57,039 nucleotides of DNA from Opitutaceae bacterium (GTDB lineage Bacteria > Verrucomicrobiota > Verrucomicrobiia > Opitutales > Opitutaceae). How positions within the stretch are numbered: position 1 is the first letter of the stretch; the number at the start of each line of letters is the position of its first letter. The translations under genes and the position numbers were made by a program. The notes below the pieces were generated by a model, which saw only the letters and a list, made by a program, of their open reading frames with translations, ran no database searches and had not been told where the DNA came from. Below are positions 41,249 through 47,949 of the stretch, in pieces. Where the stretch lies: positions 1 to 57,039 of the forward strand of contig JACMRG010000041.1 in the NCBI GenBank assembly GCA_014376585.1. The letters run 5' to 3'.

Positions 41249-42391
41249 TCAGCCGCGCAAGACATGCGGCACGAACCGGCTGAGATTCCCCGTGATCCGG
41301 CGCGTGTCCTCGCGCACCCCCAACCCGCAGGCCTCGTGGTTGACGATCCACACACCGCACACGGGCCGGTTGCCCGCGTGCACCGGAATCGGCGCCAAAG
41401 CCTGGAAAACGTAGCCCTCCTCGCCGTAGTCACCGCCATTCTCCTCGACCGTGCGTCCGCCTTCGACCACCGCGACGTTCGCGCCTTCTCGGCTTAGCCG
41501 CGGCTTCTTCACATAACTCGCCCGCGAACCCGCCAAGTCGACAAACGGCCCCGGCGATTCAAACGTGGGCAACAAATTCGGATGCTCAGGAAACAACTCC
41601 CAGAGCACCGGCAACAAGCCCTTGCTGCTCAGCAGAAATTTCCACGCCGGCTCGATAAACAGGTTCGGCGCGCGCTCCAAATGCTCGGCAAAGGGCTCGT
41701 GCCACATCCATTCCCATGGATAAAGTTTGAACAGCGCCTCCACGGGCGCGTTCGCCTGATCGACGAAGCGCCCCGCGCCCGGGTCCCAGCCGAGTTCGTT
41801 GATCGCCGTCCACTGCGCCGCAAAGCCCGCCTGCGCGCACGTGTCGGCGAGATACGCCAGCGTCTGCTCGTCTTCCGGCAGATCTTTCACGCCGGCGAAA
41901 TGCACTTTCTCGCTTGCGACGTGGCGCCACGCCTCGATCAAACGCTCGTGGATCGAGTTGAACTGGTCGCCATCCGGGAAACGTTCCTTGAGCCAGTGCC
42001 ACTGCACGACCGCCGCCTCGATGAGGGCCGTCGGCGTGTCGGCATTGTATTCGAGCAGCCTCGGCGGCGTCACGCCGTCGTAGGCGAGATCGAAACGGCC
42101 ATACACGCTCGGATCGTCGCGGTCCCAAGAGGCGAGGATCGCCGGCACCGCCTTCGCCGGAATGCCCAATCGCGACCACCAGCCGCGATCAATCACGACC
42201 TGCGCCGCTTCGATGCACAGCGCGTTCAGCGCGTTGCCCGCGGCCTCAAGTTCATCGACCTCGCGCGCGCTGAATTCGTAGTAGGCACTCTCATCCCAAT
42301 ACGCCCCCGTGTCGTGCGTGTGATAGGTGAAGCCGAGCGCCTCGACCTGCGCGCGCCAGTTCGCCCGCGGCAAAATCTCATGACGTTTCAT
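41249..42391 (-). CDS. Glutathionylspermidine synthase-like ATP-grasp protein (YjfC/YgiC type)
   Basis: A 380-residue protein resembling the C-terminal synthetase domain of E. coli Gss and the single-domain homologues YgiC/YjfC: YYEFSAREVDELEAA near the N-terminus, LLEYNADTPTALIEAA (about 122-137), WEWMWHEPF, LLSSKGLLPVLWELFPEHPNLLP, YVKKPRLSREGANV and YVFQALAPIPVHAG. Such enzymes form amide bonds using ATP, but the substrates of the single-domain members are not settled. It lies 1 nt after the preceding stop, third in an operon with a DUF350 membrane protein and a small linker protein. Confidence 0.92.
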   Translation of the reverse strand: MKRHEILPRANWRAQVEALGFTYHTHDTGAYWDESAYYEFSAREVDELEAAGNALNALCIEAAQVVIDRGWWSRLGIPAKAVPAILASWDRDDPSVYGRFDLAYDGVTPPRLLEYNADTPTALIEAAVVQWHWLKERFPDGDQFNSIHERLIEAWRHVASEKVHFAGVKDLPEDEQTLAYLADTCAQAGFAAQWTAINELGWDPGAGRFVDQANAPVEALFKLYPWEWMWHEPFAEHLERAPNLFIEPAWKFLLSSKGLLPVLWELFPEHPNLLPTFESPGPFVDLAGSRASYVKKPRLSREGANVAVVEGGRTVEENGGDYGEEGYVFQALAPIPVHAGNRPVCGVWIVNHEACGLGVREDTRRITGNLSRFVPHVLRG

Positions 42392-42392
42392 C

Positions 42393-42926
42393 TCAGGAAA
42401 TGCTCGGCCGCGACGAATGCCCGAAACCGCCGCGGATCACCGGGCCGGCTTTTGCCTTTGCGCCCGCGTTGGCGCGCTGCACCGCTTCGGCCGAGGGCTG
42501 CGACGACTGTTGGCGCGCAAATGCACTCACGCCCGCGCCCGCGCCCGCACTCCCGCCACCGCCGCGCGGCACAGACCCGCCCGTGCGGGCGAGCGCGCGT
42601 TGCTCGACTTCGTCTTCCTGCGCCGCGTTGCGCCACCCGCCGCCGCGATACCAGCCACGCCCGCTTTCATAGTGGTTAAACGGCAGCAGAAACCACCCGT
42701 GATACGGCGCGTGATAATAGCCCGCGCCGGGCAGAAAATGGTTGTTCGGGTAAACCGTCTCGGCGTTGACCGTCTCCGGCTGCGCCGCCTCTCGGCGATC
42801 CGCCGTGCGCGCGCACTGCGTCACGCCCAGCACGACCGGCAGGCCCACCGCGCCCGCCGCGATCAGCAGCGGCGTAAGGACGGCGCGCGACATGCGCGGA
42901 CGCTGCCCAAGATTATAGTCGCTCAC
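42393..42926 (-). CDS. Small Gly/Ala-rich membrane-anchored protein, YjfM/YgiB position
   Basis: A 177-residue protein with one hydrophobic segment (about 14-36) and a C-terminal half rich in Gly, Ala, Ser and Arg (GGGGSAGAGAGVSAF). The middle contains an aromatic stretch (NHFLPGAGYYHAPYHGWFLLPF). In E. coli the YgiB/YjfM (DUF1190) proteins sit between DUF350 and the synthetase-like gene and are similarly low-complexity, envelope-located. Position supports a functional equivalent, while sequence similarity is weak. The start overlaps the DUF350 stop (ATGA at 42923-42926). Confidence 0.75.
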   Translation of the reverse strand: MSDYNLGQRPRMSRAVLTPLLIAAGAVGLPVVLGVTQCARTADRREAAQPETVNAETVYPNNHFLPGAGYYHAPYHGWFLLPFNHYESGRGWYRGGGWRNAAQEDEVEQRALARTGGSVPRGGGGSAGAGAGVSAFARQQSSQPSAEAVQRANAGAKAKAGPVIRGGFGHSSRPSIS

Positions 42927-43189
42927 CCCACAATGGCCGCCGCGACGATGATGCAGACGCCGATGATCACGGCGGCACCCACCAAAGCAGCTGCGACATT
43001 ACGGTTCTCAACGATCTCCTTGTGCAGTTCACCCGGCGTGCAGAGGTCGAAGATCTTGTAGCCGACCACGGCGAGCCCGATGCCCAGCAGTGAAAAAATC
43101 ACGACGTAGAAAATCGCCTGCCCAAGCGACGTCGCATGCCAGTCAACGCCGGCGACCTGCGCCAGCGGAAGAAGAACGGGGAATTTCAT
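42923..43189 (-). CDS. DUF350-family membrane protein (YjfL type)
   Basis: An 88-residue protein with two helices (about 24-46 and 64-87) and the DUF350 loop YKIFDLCTPGELHKEIVENRNVAAALVGAAV split across them. It is the first gene of a three-gene operon (DUF350, small linker protein, glutathionylspermidine-synthase-like). The same order occurs as yjfL-yjfM-yjfC in E. coli. Function unknown; the conserved acidic/Asn residues in the loop may be functional. It is half the length of two-repeat DUF350 proteins. Confidence 0.88.
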   Translation of the reverse strand: MKFPVLLPLAQVAGVDWHATSLGQAIFYVVIFSLLGIGLAVVGYKIFDLCTPGELHKEIVENRNVAAALVGAAVIIGVCIIVAAAIVG

Positions 43190-44616: not shown

Positions 44617-45393
44617 ATGACGTTTCCCTTCCACCTTGATCTGTTCGGCCTGCGGCTCCACCCGCACCTCGTCCTCGAATCCCTCGCCTACTTCGTCGGC
44701 GCCCGCGTCTATTTCGCCCTGCGCCGCCGCGCCGCCGAAACCCCTCTGCCCTTGGAAACCAACCTCTGGCTCCTCGTCGGCGCCGCCTTCGGCGCGTGGG
44801 CCGGCTCCAAGCTCCTCGCCTGGGCCGAATCCCCGCAACACTACCTCGCACTCGCCGCCGCCGCCCCCGCCGCGCTCCTCGGCGGCAAGACCATCGTGGG
44901 GGGCCTGCTCGGCGGCTGGGCGGGCGTCGAACTCGCCAAAAAATTCACCCGCGTCACCCGCTCCACCGGCGATGTCTTCATCTGGCCCCTCGCGCTCGGC
45001 ACCGCCATCGGCCGCGTCGGTTGCTTTCTCACGGGCCTCGCCGATCGCACCTACGGCGTCGCGACCTCGCTCCCGTGGGGGGTCGATTTCGGCGACGGAC
45101 TCCGCCGTCATCCCACCCAGCTCTACGAATCTCTCTTCGTCCTCACGCTCGCGACCGCCCTTACCCTCGCCACGCGCCGCCGCGCCCTCCCCACCGGCGC
45201 CCGCTTCCGCCTCTACTTCGCCGGCTATTTCCTTTTCCGCTTCGCCATCGAATTCCTCAAACCCCGCGAAACCCCGTTCCTCGCCCTCAGCGCCATCCAG
45301 TTCGCCAGCCTCCTCGGCGCCGCCCTCGCCCTCCTGACCATCCGCCACCTCGGGCCCTCTGCCCCAATCGAAAATCGGCAATCGCCAATTTAA
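44617..45393 (+). CDS. Divergent Lgt-like (prolipoprotein diacylglyceryl transferase family) membrane protein
   Basis: A 258-residue membrane protein. It retains GRVGCF (Lgt Arg143), RHPTQLYE, and FRFAIEFL with Arg and Glu equivalent to E. coli R239 and E243. However, the SFHGGLIG motif reads TIVGGLLG (His103 becomes Val) and GRLGNFINGE reads GRVGCFLTGL (Asn146 becomes Cys, Glu lost). His103 and Asn146 are, from memory, needed for lipoprotein modification, so this is probably not the housekeeping Lgt. Eleven bases separate its stop from a Tes-like radical SAM gene. A lipid-tail substrate for both is a reasonable inference. Confidence 0.82.
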   Translation: MTFPFHLDLFGLRLHPHLVLESLAYFVGARVYFALRRRAAETPLPLETNLWLLVGAAFGAWAGSKLLAWAESPQHYLALAAAAPAALLGGKTIVGGLLGGWAGVELAKKFTRVTRSTGDVFIWPLALGTAIGRVGCFLTGLADRTYGVATSLPWGVDFGDGLRRHPTQLYESLFVLTLATALTLATRRRALPTGARFRLYFAGYFLFRFAIEFLKPRETPFLALSAIQFASLLGAALALLTIRHLGPSAPIENRQSPI

Positions 45394-45404
45394 AATCCAA
45401 TCCC

Positions 45405-46808
45405 ATGGACCGCTCCTATCTCTTCGCCGAACTCACCAACAGCCTTTGCTCAAAATGCCTCCGCAAGGTCGAGGCCAAGGTCGTCTATCAGGACGACAAG
45501 GTCTTCCTCCTCAAAAACTGCCCCGATCACGGCCCCGAGCGTGTCCTCATCTCCACCGACGTCCCCTACTACAAACTCAGCCGCGCCACCCTGAAGCCCG
45601 GCCAGATGCCCGCCCACTTCAACACCCCCACGCGCTTCGGCTGTCCCTACGACTGCGGCCTCTGCCCCGACCATGAGCAACACTCCTGCCTCACCCTCGT
45701 CGAGATCACCGACCAGTGTAATCTCCAGTGCCCGATCTGCTACGCCGAGTCTTCGCCGAAGCGCCAGACCCACCGCTCCCTCGACCACGTTGAGCTCATG
45801 CTCGACGCCGTCGTCCGCAACGAAGCCGAGCCCGACATCGTCCAGATCAGCGGCGGCGAGCCCACGATCCACCCGCAGTTTTTTGAAATCCTCGACGCCG
45901 CCAAACGCCGCCCGATCAAGCACCTCATGGTGAACACCAATGGCGTCCGCATCGCGCAGGACGCCGCCTTCGCCGCCCGCCTCGCCACCTACCAACCCGG
46001 CTTCGAACTCTACCTCCAGTTCGACTCCCTACGCGCCGCACCGCTGCACGAACTCCGCGGCGCCGACCTCCGCGACATCCGCCGCCGCGCCCTCGACCGC
46101 CTCAACGAGCTCAACCTCTCCACCACCCTCGTCGTCACCCTCAAAAAAGGCCTCAACGACGACGAGATCGGCGAAATCATCGACTTCGCGCTCAAGCAAC
46201 GCTGCGTGCGCGGCGTCACCTTCCAGCCCATCCAGGACGCCGGCCGCACCGAGGACTTCGACCCCGCCCGCGACCGCCTCACCCTCGCCGAGGTCCGCCA
46301 AAACATCCTCGCCCAATCCCCCGTCTTCAAACCCGCCGACATCATCCCCGTCCCCTGCCACCCCGACTGCCTCGCCATGGGTTACGCGCTCAAGCTCGAC
46401 GGCAAAGTCATCCCCCTCACCAGCCTCATCCCGCCCGAAACCCTCCTCAAAGCCGAAGGCAGCAACCTCGTCTTCGAACGCGACCCCGCCCTCCGCGCCG
46501 AGGTCTTCAAACTCTTCTCCACCGCCCACTCGCCCGAGTCCGCGACGATCGCGCTCCGCCAGCTCCTCTGCTGCCTCCCGCTCATCAAAGCCCCGCCCGC
46601 GATCACCTACGAAAACATCTTCCGCGTCCTCGTGATCCAGTTCCTCGACGCCCATAACTTCGACGTCCGCAGCGTGAAAAAATCCTGCATCCACATCGTC
46701 CACCCCGACGGCCGCATCATCCCCTTCGACACGTTTAACCTTTTCTACCGCGACGGCAAAGAAGCCCGCCTCCGCGAACTCCAGGCGATGCACGATTCAA
46801 AAACCTGA
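45405..46808 (+). CDS. Cys-rich radical SAM enzyme, COG1964/tetraether-synthase (Tes)-like
   Basis: A 467-residue enzyme with the radical-SAM cluster C105-xxx-C109-xx-C112 in EITDQCNLQCPICYAE, the SAM-binding ISGGEPT, and additional Cys: C15/C18/C39 (rubredoxin-like CSKC…NCPDHG), C80/C84/C87 (GCPYDCGLCPDH) and C-terminal CHPDC, CC and SC. This layout matches the family of archaeal Tes (joins lipid tails to form tetraethers). It follows an Lgt-like membrane protein by 11 bp and precedes a small three-helix membrane protein by 17 bp, so the three are likely one operon with a membrane-lipid substrate. Substrate and reaction are inferred; the radical-SAM call is firm. Confidence 0.9.
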   Translation: MDRSYLFAELTNSLCSKCLRKVEAKVVYQDDKVFLLKNCPDHGPERVLISTDVPYYKLSRATLKPGQMPAHFNTPTRFGCPYDCGLCPDHEQHSCLTLVEITDQCNLQCPICYAESSPKRQTHRSLDHVELMLDAVVRNEAEPDIVQISGGEPTIHPQFFEILDAAKRRPIKHLMVNTNGVRIAQDAAFAARLATYQPGFELYLQFDSLRAAPLHELRGADLRDIRRRALDRLNELNLSTTLVVTLKKGLNDDEIGEIIDFALKQRCVRGVTFQPIQDAGRTEDFDPARDRLTLAEVRQNILAQSPVFKPADIIPVPCHPDCLAMGYALKLDGKVIPLTSLIPPETLLKAEGSNLVFERDPALRAEVFKLFSTAHSPESATIALRQLLCCLPLIKAPPAITYENIFRVLVIQFLDAHNFDVRSVKKSCIHIVHPDGRIIPFDTFNLFYRDGKEARLRELQAMHDSKT

Positions 46809-46825: not shown

Positions 46826-47119
46826 ATGACGTTCAACGACCCCGAATTTCCACCGCGCGACAACGCTGCCGAAATTAAATCCGGTCGCCTCATCATCGCT
46901 GGCTTCATCACTGGTGCCGTGCCTTGGCTCTTGACCCTGGTCCCACAGAAAAACTACGGCCAAATTCCTTTCCTCATCGTCTCGTGTTTCATCGTTCCGG
47001 TCCTCGCCGGCATCTTGGCGCTCGTCCCGCGGACCCGCAAATTCGGCCTCGGCCTCCTGCTTGCCTCCGGCCTCGGCTGGCTCGTCCTCGCCGCCATCTG
47101 CGGCGGCGTCTTCCGCTGA
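46826..47119 (+). CDS. Small membrane protein, unknown
   Basis: A 97-residue protein with three hydrophobic stretches (about 24-40, 48-66, 73-92), a charged N-terminus (MTFNDPEFPPRDNAAEIKSGR) and short polar loops. No family is recognised. It begins 17 bp after the radical SAM gene and is probably part of the same transcript. Its codon use resembles its neighbours. Confidence 0.7.
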   Translation: MTFNDPEFPPRDNAAEIKSGRLIIAGFITGAVPWLLTLVPQKNYGQIPFLIVSCFIVPVLAGILALVPRTRKFGLGLLLASGLGWLVLAAICGGVFR

Positions 47120-47238: not shown

Positions 47239-47949
47239 ATGCGCCGCCTCGACCAACTCCTCGCCAACCTCGGTTACTGCTCCCGCAGTGAAGCCCGCGA
47301 TTGGACCGACTCCGGCACCGTCCTCGTCCGCGGCGAGCCCGCCGACGGCCCGTCCCAAAAAGCCCACGCCGCCGATGTCCGCGTCGAGGGCGCGCCGCTC
47401 GACCACCCCGACGGCCTCATTCTCCTCCTGCACAAACCCCTCGGCCTCGTCTGCTCCCACGAACTCCGCGAAGGCCCCAACATCTACACTCTCCTCCCCG
47501 CGCGCTGGCAGCGCCGCAATCCCGTCATCACCAGCATCGGCCGCCTCGATAAAGATACCTCCGGCCTCATCCTCCTCACCGACCAGAGCGCCCTCGTGCA
47601 CCGCCTTACTTCGCCGAAGCACAAGGTCCCCAAAATCTACCGCGCCACGCTCGGCGCCGATCTCACGCCCGCCCGCGCCGCGGAAAGCGCCACCCTCTTC
47701 GCCGCCGGCACGCTCATCCTCCCCGACGAGACCACGCCCTGCGCCCCCGCCGCCCTCACCCTGATCTCGCCTCGCGAGGTCGAGCTCACGCTCACCGAAG
47801 GTCGCTACCACCAAGTCCGCCGCATGTTCGCCTGGGTCGGCTACGAAGTCGTCGCGCTCCACCGCACCCACTTCGGCGCGCTCGACCTCGGCGATCTCAA
47901 ACCCGGCACCTGGCGCGAGCTGCCCCTCGATTTCTTCGCCACCCCGTAG
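47239..47949 (+). CDS. rsuA: 16S rRNA pseudouridine synthase, RsuA/RluE-like
   Basis: A 236-residue protein: an S4-like RNA-binding start (MRRLDQLLANLGYCSRSEARDW), catalytic-loop motif IGRLDKDTSGLILLT (catalytic Asp about residue 105), KIYRATL and the C-terminal EGRYHQVRRMFAWVG. Length and domain order match RsuA, which modifies U516 of 16S rRNA; RluB/RluE-type specificity cannot be excluded. It is cytoplasmic and its stop lies inside a REP-like hairpin. Confidence 0.92.
   Translation: MRRLDQLLANLGYCSRSEARDWTDSGTVLVRGEPADGPSQKAHAADVRVEGAPLDHPDGLILLLHKPLGLVCSHELREGPNIYTLLPARWQRRNPVITSIGRLDKDTSGLILLTDQSALVHRLTSPKHKVPKIYRATLGADLTPARAAESATLFAAGTLILPDETTPCAPAALTLISPREVELTLTEGRYHQVRRMFAWVGYEVVALHRTHFGALDLGDLKPGTWRELPLDFFATP

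Follow-up and report, generated by a model that had tools for sequence, protein, structure and literature searches.

A widespread bacterial cassette of an Lgt-like protein, a tetraether-synthase-like radical SAM enzyme and small cysteine-tailed membrane proteins: a candidate peptide-lipidation system

The stretch of DNA analysed in this study (57,039 nucleotides of Opitutaceae bacterium contig JACMRG010000041.1, hereafter the window) carries three consecutive genes encoding a homologue of prolipoprotein diacylglyceryl transferase (Lgt), a radical S-adenosylmethionine (rSAM) enzyme resembling tetraether synthase (Tes), and a small membrane protein with a cysteine close to its C-terminus. The recurrence of these genes as a cassette is a strong finding at the gene level, and the chemistry suggested for them below is a hypothesis. 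With a probability of roughly 0.45, the three genes constitute a self-contained peptide-lipidation cassette, in which the Lgt-like enzyme lipidates the C-terminal Cys and the Tes-like enzyme then performs radical chemistry. The features at the locus are as follows.

44617..45393, forward strand: Lgt-like polytopic membrane protein P0002, 258 residues (ATG at 44617, stop codon ending at 45393; Pfam LGT)
45405..46808, forward strand: Tes/TrsS-like rSAM enzyme P0001, 467 residues, full-length (Pfam Radical_SAM and HMPTM N-terminal zinc ribbon)
46826..47119, forward strand: small membrane protein P0003, 97 residues, member of the Cys-tail family and candidate lipid acceptor
47239-47949: S4/pseudouridine synthase, the next gene after P0003, not counted as a cassette member

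The three cassette genes lie head to tail, with 11 bp between P0002 and the ATG of P0001 and 17 bp between P0001 and P0003. An earlier note, made from the letters of the window alone, had given the span 44617-46808 and the two gaps and had placed a small membrane protein at the end of the row, all of which was confirmed.

Related loci were obtained by a scan of 84,980 species genomes, from which the best 80 of 584 confirmed loci, being the best matches to the query and not a random sample, were examined. In the best segment, their rSAM proteins shared 59-71% identity with P0001. By record titles, the 80 loci represented nine phylum-level groups: Bacteroidota (41), Bacillota (15), Acidobacteriota and Pseudomonadota (7 each), Planctomycetota (4), Melainabacteria and Cyanobacteriota (2 each), and Myxococcota and Elusimicrobiota (1 each). 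Paenibacillus, Chitinophaga, Hymenobacter and Flavobacterium were among the genera carrying the cassette, as were cyanobacteria. The pairing that the earlier note had read from a single locus was kept in Bacillota, Bacteroidota, Acidobacteriota and others, as tblastn with P0002 found, at 71 of the 80 loci, an Lgt-like gene no more than about 4 kb from the rSAM gene. At 67 loci this gene was upstream, on the same strand and within 3 kb, with an estimated gap of 105 bp or less in 53 and many overlapping; at four (L075, L082, L102, L133) it was 3-4 kb up- or downstream. Five of the nine loci lacking an Lgt-like gene had less than 320 bp upstream before the contig end (L091, L097, L111, L138, L143), and the other four (L087, L090, L104, L115) had upstream room with no Lgt-like gene detected by tblastn. 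Five of those nine genomes encoded a cassette-type Lgt elsewhere, two had only GCC-type or other paralogues, and two had none at E 1e-6.

Clustering of the neighbouring genes recovered the rSAM gene at 77 loci and the Lgt gene at 63, with no other cluster exceeding 11 of 80. The next four comprised three clusters of small proteins (11, 9 and 9 loci) and a generic ATP-binding cassette (ABC) transporter ATPase in scattered places (10 loci). Further neighbours were rejected as cassette members, as none was present at more than 10 of 80 loci (the ABC ATPase; ribosome-binding factor A, recognised by sequence reading, at 8). The distance matrices of the Lgt and rSAM proteins were correlated (r = 0.77, with 0 of 1000 permutations as high, 72 pairs), which counts as supporting only, because a correlation of this kind would equally arise if the host genomes share their descent. 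In the window's phylum, 387 genomes were covered, and only the window's genome and one same-family genome (rSAM 79% and Lgt 62% identity) had the close form. A same-genus genome and the other listed same-family genomes had no rSAM match, and the cassette is therefore patchy within the phylum. Elsewhere in the window, on the reverse strand at 41249-43189, a glutathionylspermidine-synthase-like gene, an uncharacterised open reading frame (ORF) of 177 residues and a DUF350 membrane protein lie consecutively.

The last hydrophobic stretch of P0003 ends ...LVLAAI-C92-GGVFR. No Pfam or NCBIfam family reached its cut-off with P0003, and ten small cassette proteins searched against the same two collections gave nothing near cut-off. 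ORFs downstream of the rSAM genes were mutually dissimilar save for a Cys near the end, and in an alignment of 32 small proteins the column corresponding to C92 was the only invariant one. A hidden Markov model (HMM) seeded with seven Bacillota proteins and run for four rounds against 8543 ORFs from 82 loci matched 41 ORFs at E<0.01, of which 39 were within 2.5 kb of the rSAM gene on the same strand; the remaining two belonged to an array at L101. When the 49 matches with E<0.1 within 5 kb were kept, 48 had a Cys among the last 15 residues, and the residue at position -2 was G, A, S or T in all 48. A Cys-tail pattern, drawn up after the family had been seen, was matched by 58 of 1187 near ORFs on the forward strand vs 1 of 2788 far ORFs (Fisher p 6e-30), and a relaxed pattern by 70 of 1333 vs 3 of 2642. 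At least one HMM or pattern match was present at 59 of the 80 loci, and two to eight at 12. In a Holophagae bacterium (L101 11238-15727), eight small membrane proteins lie in a row downstream of the cassette rSAM gene, seven of them with the C-terminal Cys. The 32-row profile, run against 16 whole genomes, made 16 matches in 11 of them, all within cassettes; since most of these were the profile's own rows, the search shows just that nothing else matched. Three of the five genomes with no profile match (L126, L142, L145) do encode a Cys-tail protein, which the profile overlooked, and the L099 and L110 genomes gave none by the profile or by the HMM and pattern criteria.

On average, the small proteins carried 2.5 K/R residues in the stretch leading up to the helix and 0.18 beyond the Cys, which by the positive-inside rule predicts the Cys to be outside. 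Multiple diverse proteins that share one fixed Cys would look like substrates rather than subunits. The arrangement of charge, hydrophobic stretch and Cys is that of a lipoprotein signal peptide, and 15 of the 49 small proteins end in His. It is conceivable, and in our estimate very improbable, that signal peptidase II cuts before the Cys after its lipidation, freeing a C-terminal lipopeptide of 5-15 residues as a membrane-bound or shed signal. Signal peptidase II disfavours T, V, I or L at position -1, where one of these residues was present in 24 of 48 proteins, and no recurrent peptidase cluster was seen among the listed neighbours when their names were read by eye. The lipo-invert C-terminal domain (NF058595) was considered for P0003 and rejected, as P0003 scored 10.4 vs 37 bits and the model exceeded its cut-off in one of 22 cassette genomes, an acidobacterium; the term lipo-invert was found in no paper searched. 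That acidobacterium (the L099 genome) had 12 matches over the NF058595 cut-off, at L148 and other places.

P0002 is a homologue of Lgt but not Lgt proper by membership tests. It passed the Pfam LGT model (PF01790) with 93.4 bits over a cut-off of 24.9, and fell under the cut-offs of all six matching NCBIfam Lgt models (TIGR00544, 48.5 vs 118.9 bits; the best, NF000778, 59.7 vs 334). Its AlphaFold2 model (predicted local distance difference test, pLDDT, 93.7; predicted template modelling score, pTM, 0.90) had E. coli Lgt 5azb as its sole PDB match at E <= 0.001 (E 7e-8, TM 0.64, root-mean-square deviation 5.5). P0002 and 72 cassette relatives (73 rows) were aligned to E. coli K-12 Lgt, and the earlier note's claim that P0002 retains Arg143-, Arg239- and Glu243-type residues, with Val for His103, Cys for Asn146 and the nearby Glu lost, proved correct across the family. 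In E. coli numbering, the donor-side positions were conserved as R143 (72/73), Y235 (73/73) and R239 (73/73), and position 243 was E in 40 rows and D in 33; the equivalents in P0002 are R133, Y204, R208 and E212. The H103 position (V94 in P0002) was never His, being V in 47, M in 12, L in 7, I in 6 and A in one. Cys occupied the N146 position (C136 in P0002) in 72 of 73 rows, with Val in the other, and E151 was present in 8. The alignment yielded no equivalent of His103 or Asn146, and the linkage was kept in related genomes; of the earlier note's own refuting conditions, these two were checked and neither held. The cassette Lgts lack the Lgt signature GRLGNFINGELWG, which includes N146 and E151. 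Residues conserved in the cassette Lgts and absent from E. coli Lgt were H17 (71/73), E21 (70/73), E105 and K108 (73/73 each), D119 (71/73), T145, D160 (72/73) and K215. E. coli Y26 was replaced and aligned with H17 or E21 depending on the alignment. A second, normal Lgt, with HGG, N146 and E151 intact, is encoded on another contig of the source genome (200 bits).

The exchange of N146 for Cys is not special by itself, since it was also found in other Lgt paralogues with a GCC motif. Such paralogues, with GRxGC...GCCxG replacing GRxGNFINGE, were seen at L177-L181 and L187, and the same motif marks the Lgts of the sister cassettes described below. In the available part of the study of E. coli Lgt (PMC4728403), mutants at H103, E151, R143, Y26, R239 and E243 were described as inactive, an R143/R239 network was assigned to handling of the lipid donor, and the HGGL motif was proposed to bind the lipobox peptide. 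On these assignments, the cassette Lgts have kept the donor half of the enzyme and changed the proposed acceptor half.

The Cys clusters that the earlier note had called Tes-type are shared with 7TOL, a tetraether synthase structure (phmmer E 5e-63; profile E 4e-101). The ligands in P0001 are C15, C18, C39 and H42 of a rubredoxin-type site, C80, C84, C87 and H90 of an N-terminal auxiliary cluster, and C105, C109 and C112 of the rSAM cluster, followed in the C-terminal domain by C318, C389, C390 and C428, a Cys set unlike that of archaeal Tes; all of them were invariant in 81 of 81 cassette rSAM sequences. P0001 is Tes-like but not Tes proper by membership tests, as it scored 271 vs 450 bits against the NCBIfam Tes model (NF045702). 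Its best NCBIfam match was TrsS (NF045646), with 323.8 bits over residues 11-452, yet under the cut-off of 490, and the P0001 frame is open without any selenocysteine codon. Tes Tyr459 aligned with I431, Met439 with a gap or Val, and C470 with D442. Met439 and Tyr459 were reported as fully conserved in 1000 archaeal Tes homologues. Because MJ0619 variants Y459F/L and M439A were described as retaining activity (PMC9433317, available in part), these two residues serve as a test of family and not of activity. In a quick tree of 49 sequences (the window, G091, 36 of the 80 loci and 11 others), the cassette rSAM enzymes formed one clade with a Shimodaira-Hasegawa approximate likelihood ratio support of 98, to be read with caution for long outgroup branches.

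The structural model of P0001 (pLDDT 85.2, residues 353-397 under 50) matched 7tol over 505 columns (TM 0.81, E 1e-36), and none of the others among the 50 listed fold matches exceeded TM 0.43, 7tom excepted. The next matches by E-value were the peptide maturases SuiB and SkfB, and several small candidate precursors adjoin the rSAM gene at the 12 multicopy loci. These observations fit a system for ribosomally synthesised and post-translationally modified peptides (RiPPs), in which the small protein would receive a Cys-based (e.g., thioether) or C-C link from the rSAM enzyme, and the Lgt-like protein, with its catalysis changed, would act as a scaffold or exporter in the membrane. We regard this as improbable: the SuiB and SkfB matches were partial, with TM 0.34-0.38 vs 0.81 for Tes, Pfam gave no SPASM or RiPP-recognition domain in P0001, and the Lgt donor residues are too conserved for a mere scaffold. 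In addition, rSAM enzymes are cytosolic, and the Cys of the small protein is predicted to be outside.

More distant rSAM enzymes of the window's phylum, with 28-37% identity, were likewise paired with Lgt homologues. If the window's genome and G091 are counted in, an rSAM match was found in 17 genomes, and 10 of them had an Lgt homologue within about 5 kb; the other eight of those ten had Lgts with a GC...GCC motif. Cys-tail proteins accompanied eight of nine sister Lgt-rSAM pairs, one of which was actinobacterial (L022, L024, L027, L029 with two, L030 and L161 with two; by eye, L023 and L032). At L025, L028 and L031, with no Lgt nearby, no Cys-tail protein was found by the rSAM gene. At L025 (344-9334), in the window's phylum, two Tes-like rSAM genes lie inside a fatty-acid/polyketide-like cluster with no Lgt and no Cys-tail protein, the contents of which, from reading the translations, include short-chain dehydrogenase/reductase (SDR) reductases, ketosynthases, a FabZ-like dehydratase and a nitroreductase.

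Plasmid records contained 10 distant rSAM matches, for which four regions were opened, three of them annotated. Among the annotated three, only that of Mycobacterium branderi included an Lgt-family gene, and at this locus (L161 2256-5449) it is accompanied by a tandem pair of Cys-tail membrane proteins and by a distant rSAM gene, the product of which is 32% identical to P0001. In the Mycolicibacterium and Haloarcula plasmids, an actinobacterial and a haloarchaeal one (L158 4971-7339 and L160 4001-6111), a methyltransferase-domain gene adjoins the Tes-like rSAM gene, with no Lgt annotated in the opened stretches. In the unannotated Persicobacter plasmid region, the protein called directly upstream of the rSAM gene was Lgt-like by eye, and no small protein was present among the called genes.

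In some sister cassettes a PEMT/ICMT-type methyltransferase was added (L022, L023 and L026 by Pfam, L024 by clustering), an addition that would suit remodelling of membrane lipids. By such an account, free phospholipids would have their tails joined or altered by the Tes-like enzyme, while a diacylglyceryl or similar group would be shifted from one lipid or head group to another by the Lgt-like enzyme; the small protein would serve as an accessory membrane subunit. The full-length Tes fold with all N-terminal and rSAM ligands retained, together with the retained Lgt-type donor site, argues for this account, as does the description, in the accessible part of PMC9433317, of Tes binding two phospholipids. 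It leaves unexplained why the small protein keeps a C-terminal Cys as its lone invariant residue and why that protein is multicopy, and the Tes cut-off was not reached; we therefore consider remodelling unlikely, while giving it serious thought.

Peptide lipidation, the reading we favour, would proceed as follows. The Lgt-like enzyme would bind a phospholipid, probably phosphatidylglycerol, at the retained R143/Y235/R239/E243 site and hand on the diacylglyceryl group of that lipid to the small membrane protein, at the invariant C-terminal Cys. This residue is predicted to lie where the last hydrophobic helix ends on the outer side, which is also the side of Lgt action. We propose that the lipobox-side residues (HGG with H103, N146 and E151) were replaced to suit an acceptor Cys located C-terminally and preceded by a small residue at -2, in place of an N-terminal lipobox. 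The Tes-like enzyme may then abstract a hydrogen from, and couple or rearrange, the attached lipid tail or the adjoining peptide. The lipidation step is suggested by the known Lgt reaction, by a donor site that is retained and an acceptor site that is not, and by an invariant Cys whose predicted position is on the appropriate side. The radical step is a guess from the fold, Tes being described (PMC9433317, available in part) as joining the terminal carbons of lipid tails via a carbon-sulfur intermediate. The earlier note had favoured a system that modifies or joins membrane lipids, or attaches a lipid. Of this, attachment of a lipid is now preferred because the cassette has its own candidate acceptor in the small proteins with one invariant C-terminal Cys; modification or joining of membrane lipids has become a rival, with the Tes cut-off not reached and Tyr459 and Met439 not conserved.

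Several observations weigh against peptide lipidation. No cassette-type Lgt was present in four of the 80 genomes (G410, G411, G412, G416), and by automatic criteria (HMM or pattern) 21 of the 80 loci had no small protein. Some of these 21 are contig ends, and L118 has a small protein by eye; L070, L075, L082, L090, L099, L110 and L146 had none despite nearly 10 kb on both sides. One of the eight L101 copies has no Cys at the expected position. Among the sister loci, L026 has just a 52-residue ORF antisense to a called gene, and in the L028 and L031 genomes, where Lgt and rSAM genes are apart, no Cys-tail protein was found by either gene, contrary to prediction. The lipobox pattern [LVI][ASTVI][GAS]C was matched by just 3 of 48 tails, and with the Cys at the C-terminus the small proteins do not qualify as DAG-RiPP or lipoprotein precursors. 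H103 and E151 mutants are among those described as inactive in E. coli Lgt (PMC4728403, available in part), so the chemistry of the cassette enzyme may differ or be lost. Finally, nothing links the radical step to the lipid rather than to the peptide.

A bolder extension of peptide lipidation would take the lipid as the site of the radical step. After lipidation of the outer-face Cys by the Lgt-like enzyme, the Tes-like enzyme would fuse the omega end of the acyl chain to another lipid tail in mid-bilayer, leaving the protein anchored by a membrane-spanning lipid. We consider this a long shot; if true, a single conserved cassette would produce such membrane staples across at least nine phylum-level bacterial groups.

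If peptide lipidation is correct, the cassette would give many ordinary genera a second bacterial route of protein lipidation, one that acts on tiny membrane proteins at their C-terminal cysteines and is coupled to radical chemistry of the Tes type. Genes that bear only names such as "prolipoprotein diacylglyceryl transferase family protein" or "radical SAM protein" would also gain a function. Searches with loose thresholds for bacterial homologues of Tes, by which the sources of branched tetraethers are guessed, can catch the cassette enzyme: it was matched by the Tes model at E 1e-20 or better, under the curated cut-off, in all 15 cassette genomes searched. A single match in these genomes exceeded the cut-off, that of a different gene in the L100 genome (573 bits), and the L099 genome had another match, stronger than the cassette enzyme yet under the cut-off (328 bits). 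Zeng et al. (PMC8941075), who used loose thresholds, listed 456 bacterial homologues of Tes and suggested that these have a role in branched tetraethers; the part of that text available to us makes no mention of Lgt neighbours.

No description of a cassette with Lgt-like, Tes-like and Cys-tail proteins was found in the literature searched, which mostly excluded subscription papers. We regard the system as new in kind because neither enzyme passes named-family membership and no named family was matched by the candidate acceptors; on a stricter view, it may be a further form of the lipidated-peptide systems. With Lgt (E. coli 5azb), P0002 shares the fold, the GR...RHPTQLYE...R...E core and the donor-site arginines, and it differs in having no H103, N146 or E151, in the replacement of Y26, and in its own conserved H17, E21, E105, K108 and D160. 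With Tes (GDGT-MAS; MJ0619, 7TOL/7TOM; NF045702), P0001 shares the full-length fold and the rubredoxin, N-terminal auxiliary and rSAM ligands, and it differs in its score, in having no equivalents of Tyr459, Met439 and C470, and in its different set of invariant C-terminal Cys residues. TrsS is an rSAM (seleno)protein (NF045646) and, as noted, the closest named family below cut-off, with no selenocysteine codon here. The bacterial membrane-spanning lipid synthase Mss is described, in the available part of PMC13274423, as conserving the catalytic architecture of Tes and is proposed to work on free lipids with Ger; by that description only, it is set apart from the cassette. There is also a likeness to the DAG-RiPPs of the van der Donk preprint (PMC12636315), whose accessible text describes a modified peptide that can be lipidated via the general lipoprotein pathway, so that there, as proposed for the cassette, a small modified peptide is also given a diacylglyceryl group. 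The DAG-RiPPs depend on that ubiquitous pathway, an N-terminal lipobox and MNIO (multinuclear non-heme iron-dependent oxidative) enzymes, whereas the cassette has a dedicated Lgt paralogue, a Tes-like rSAM enzyme and a C-terminal Cys.

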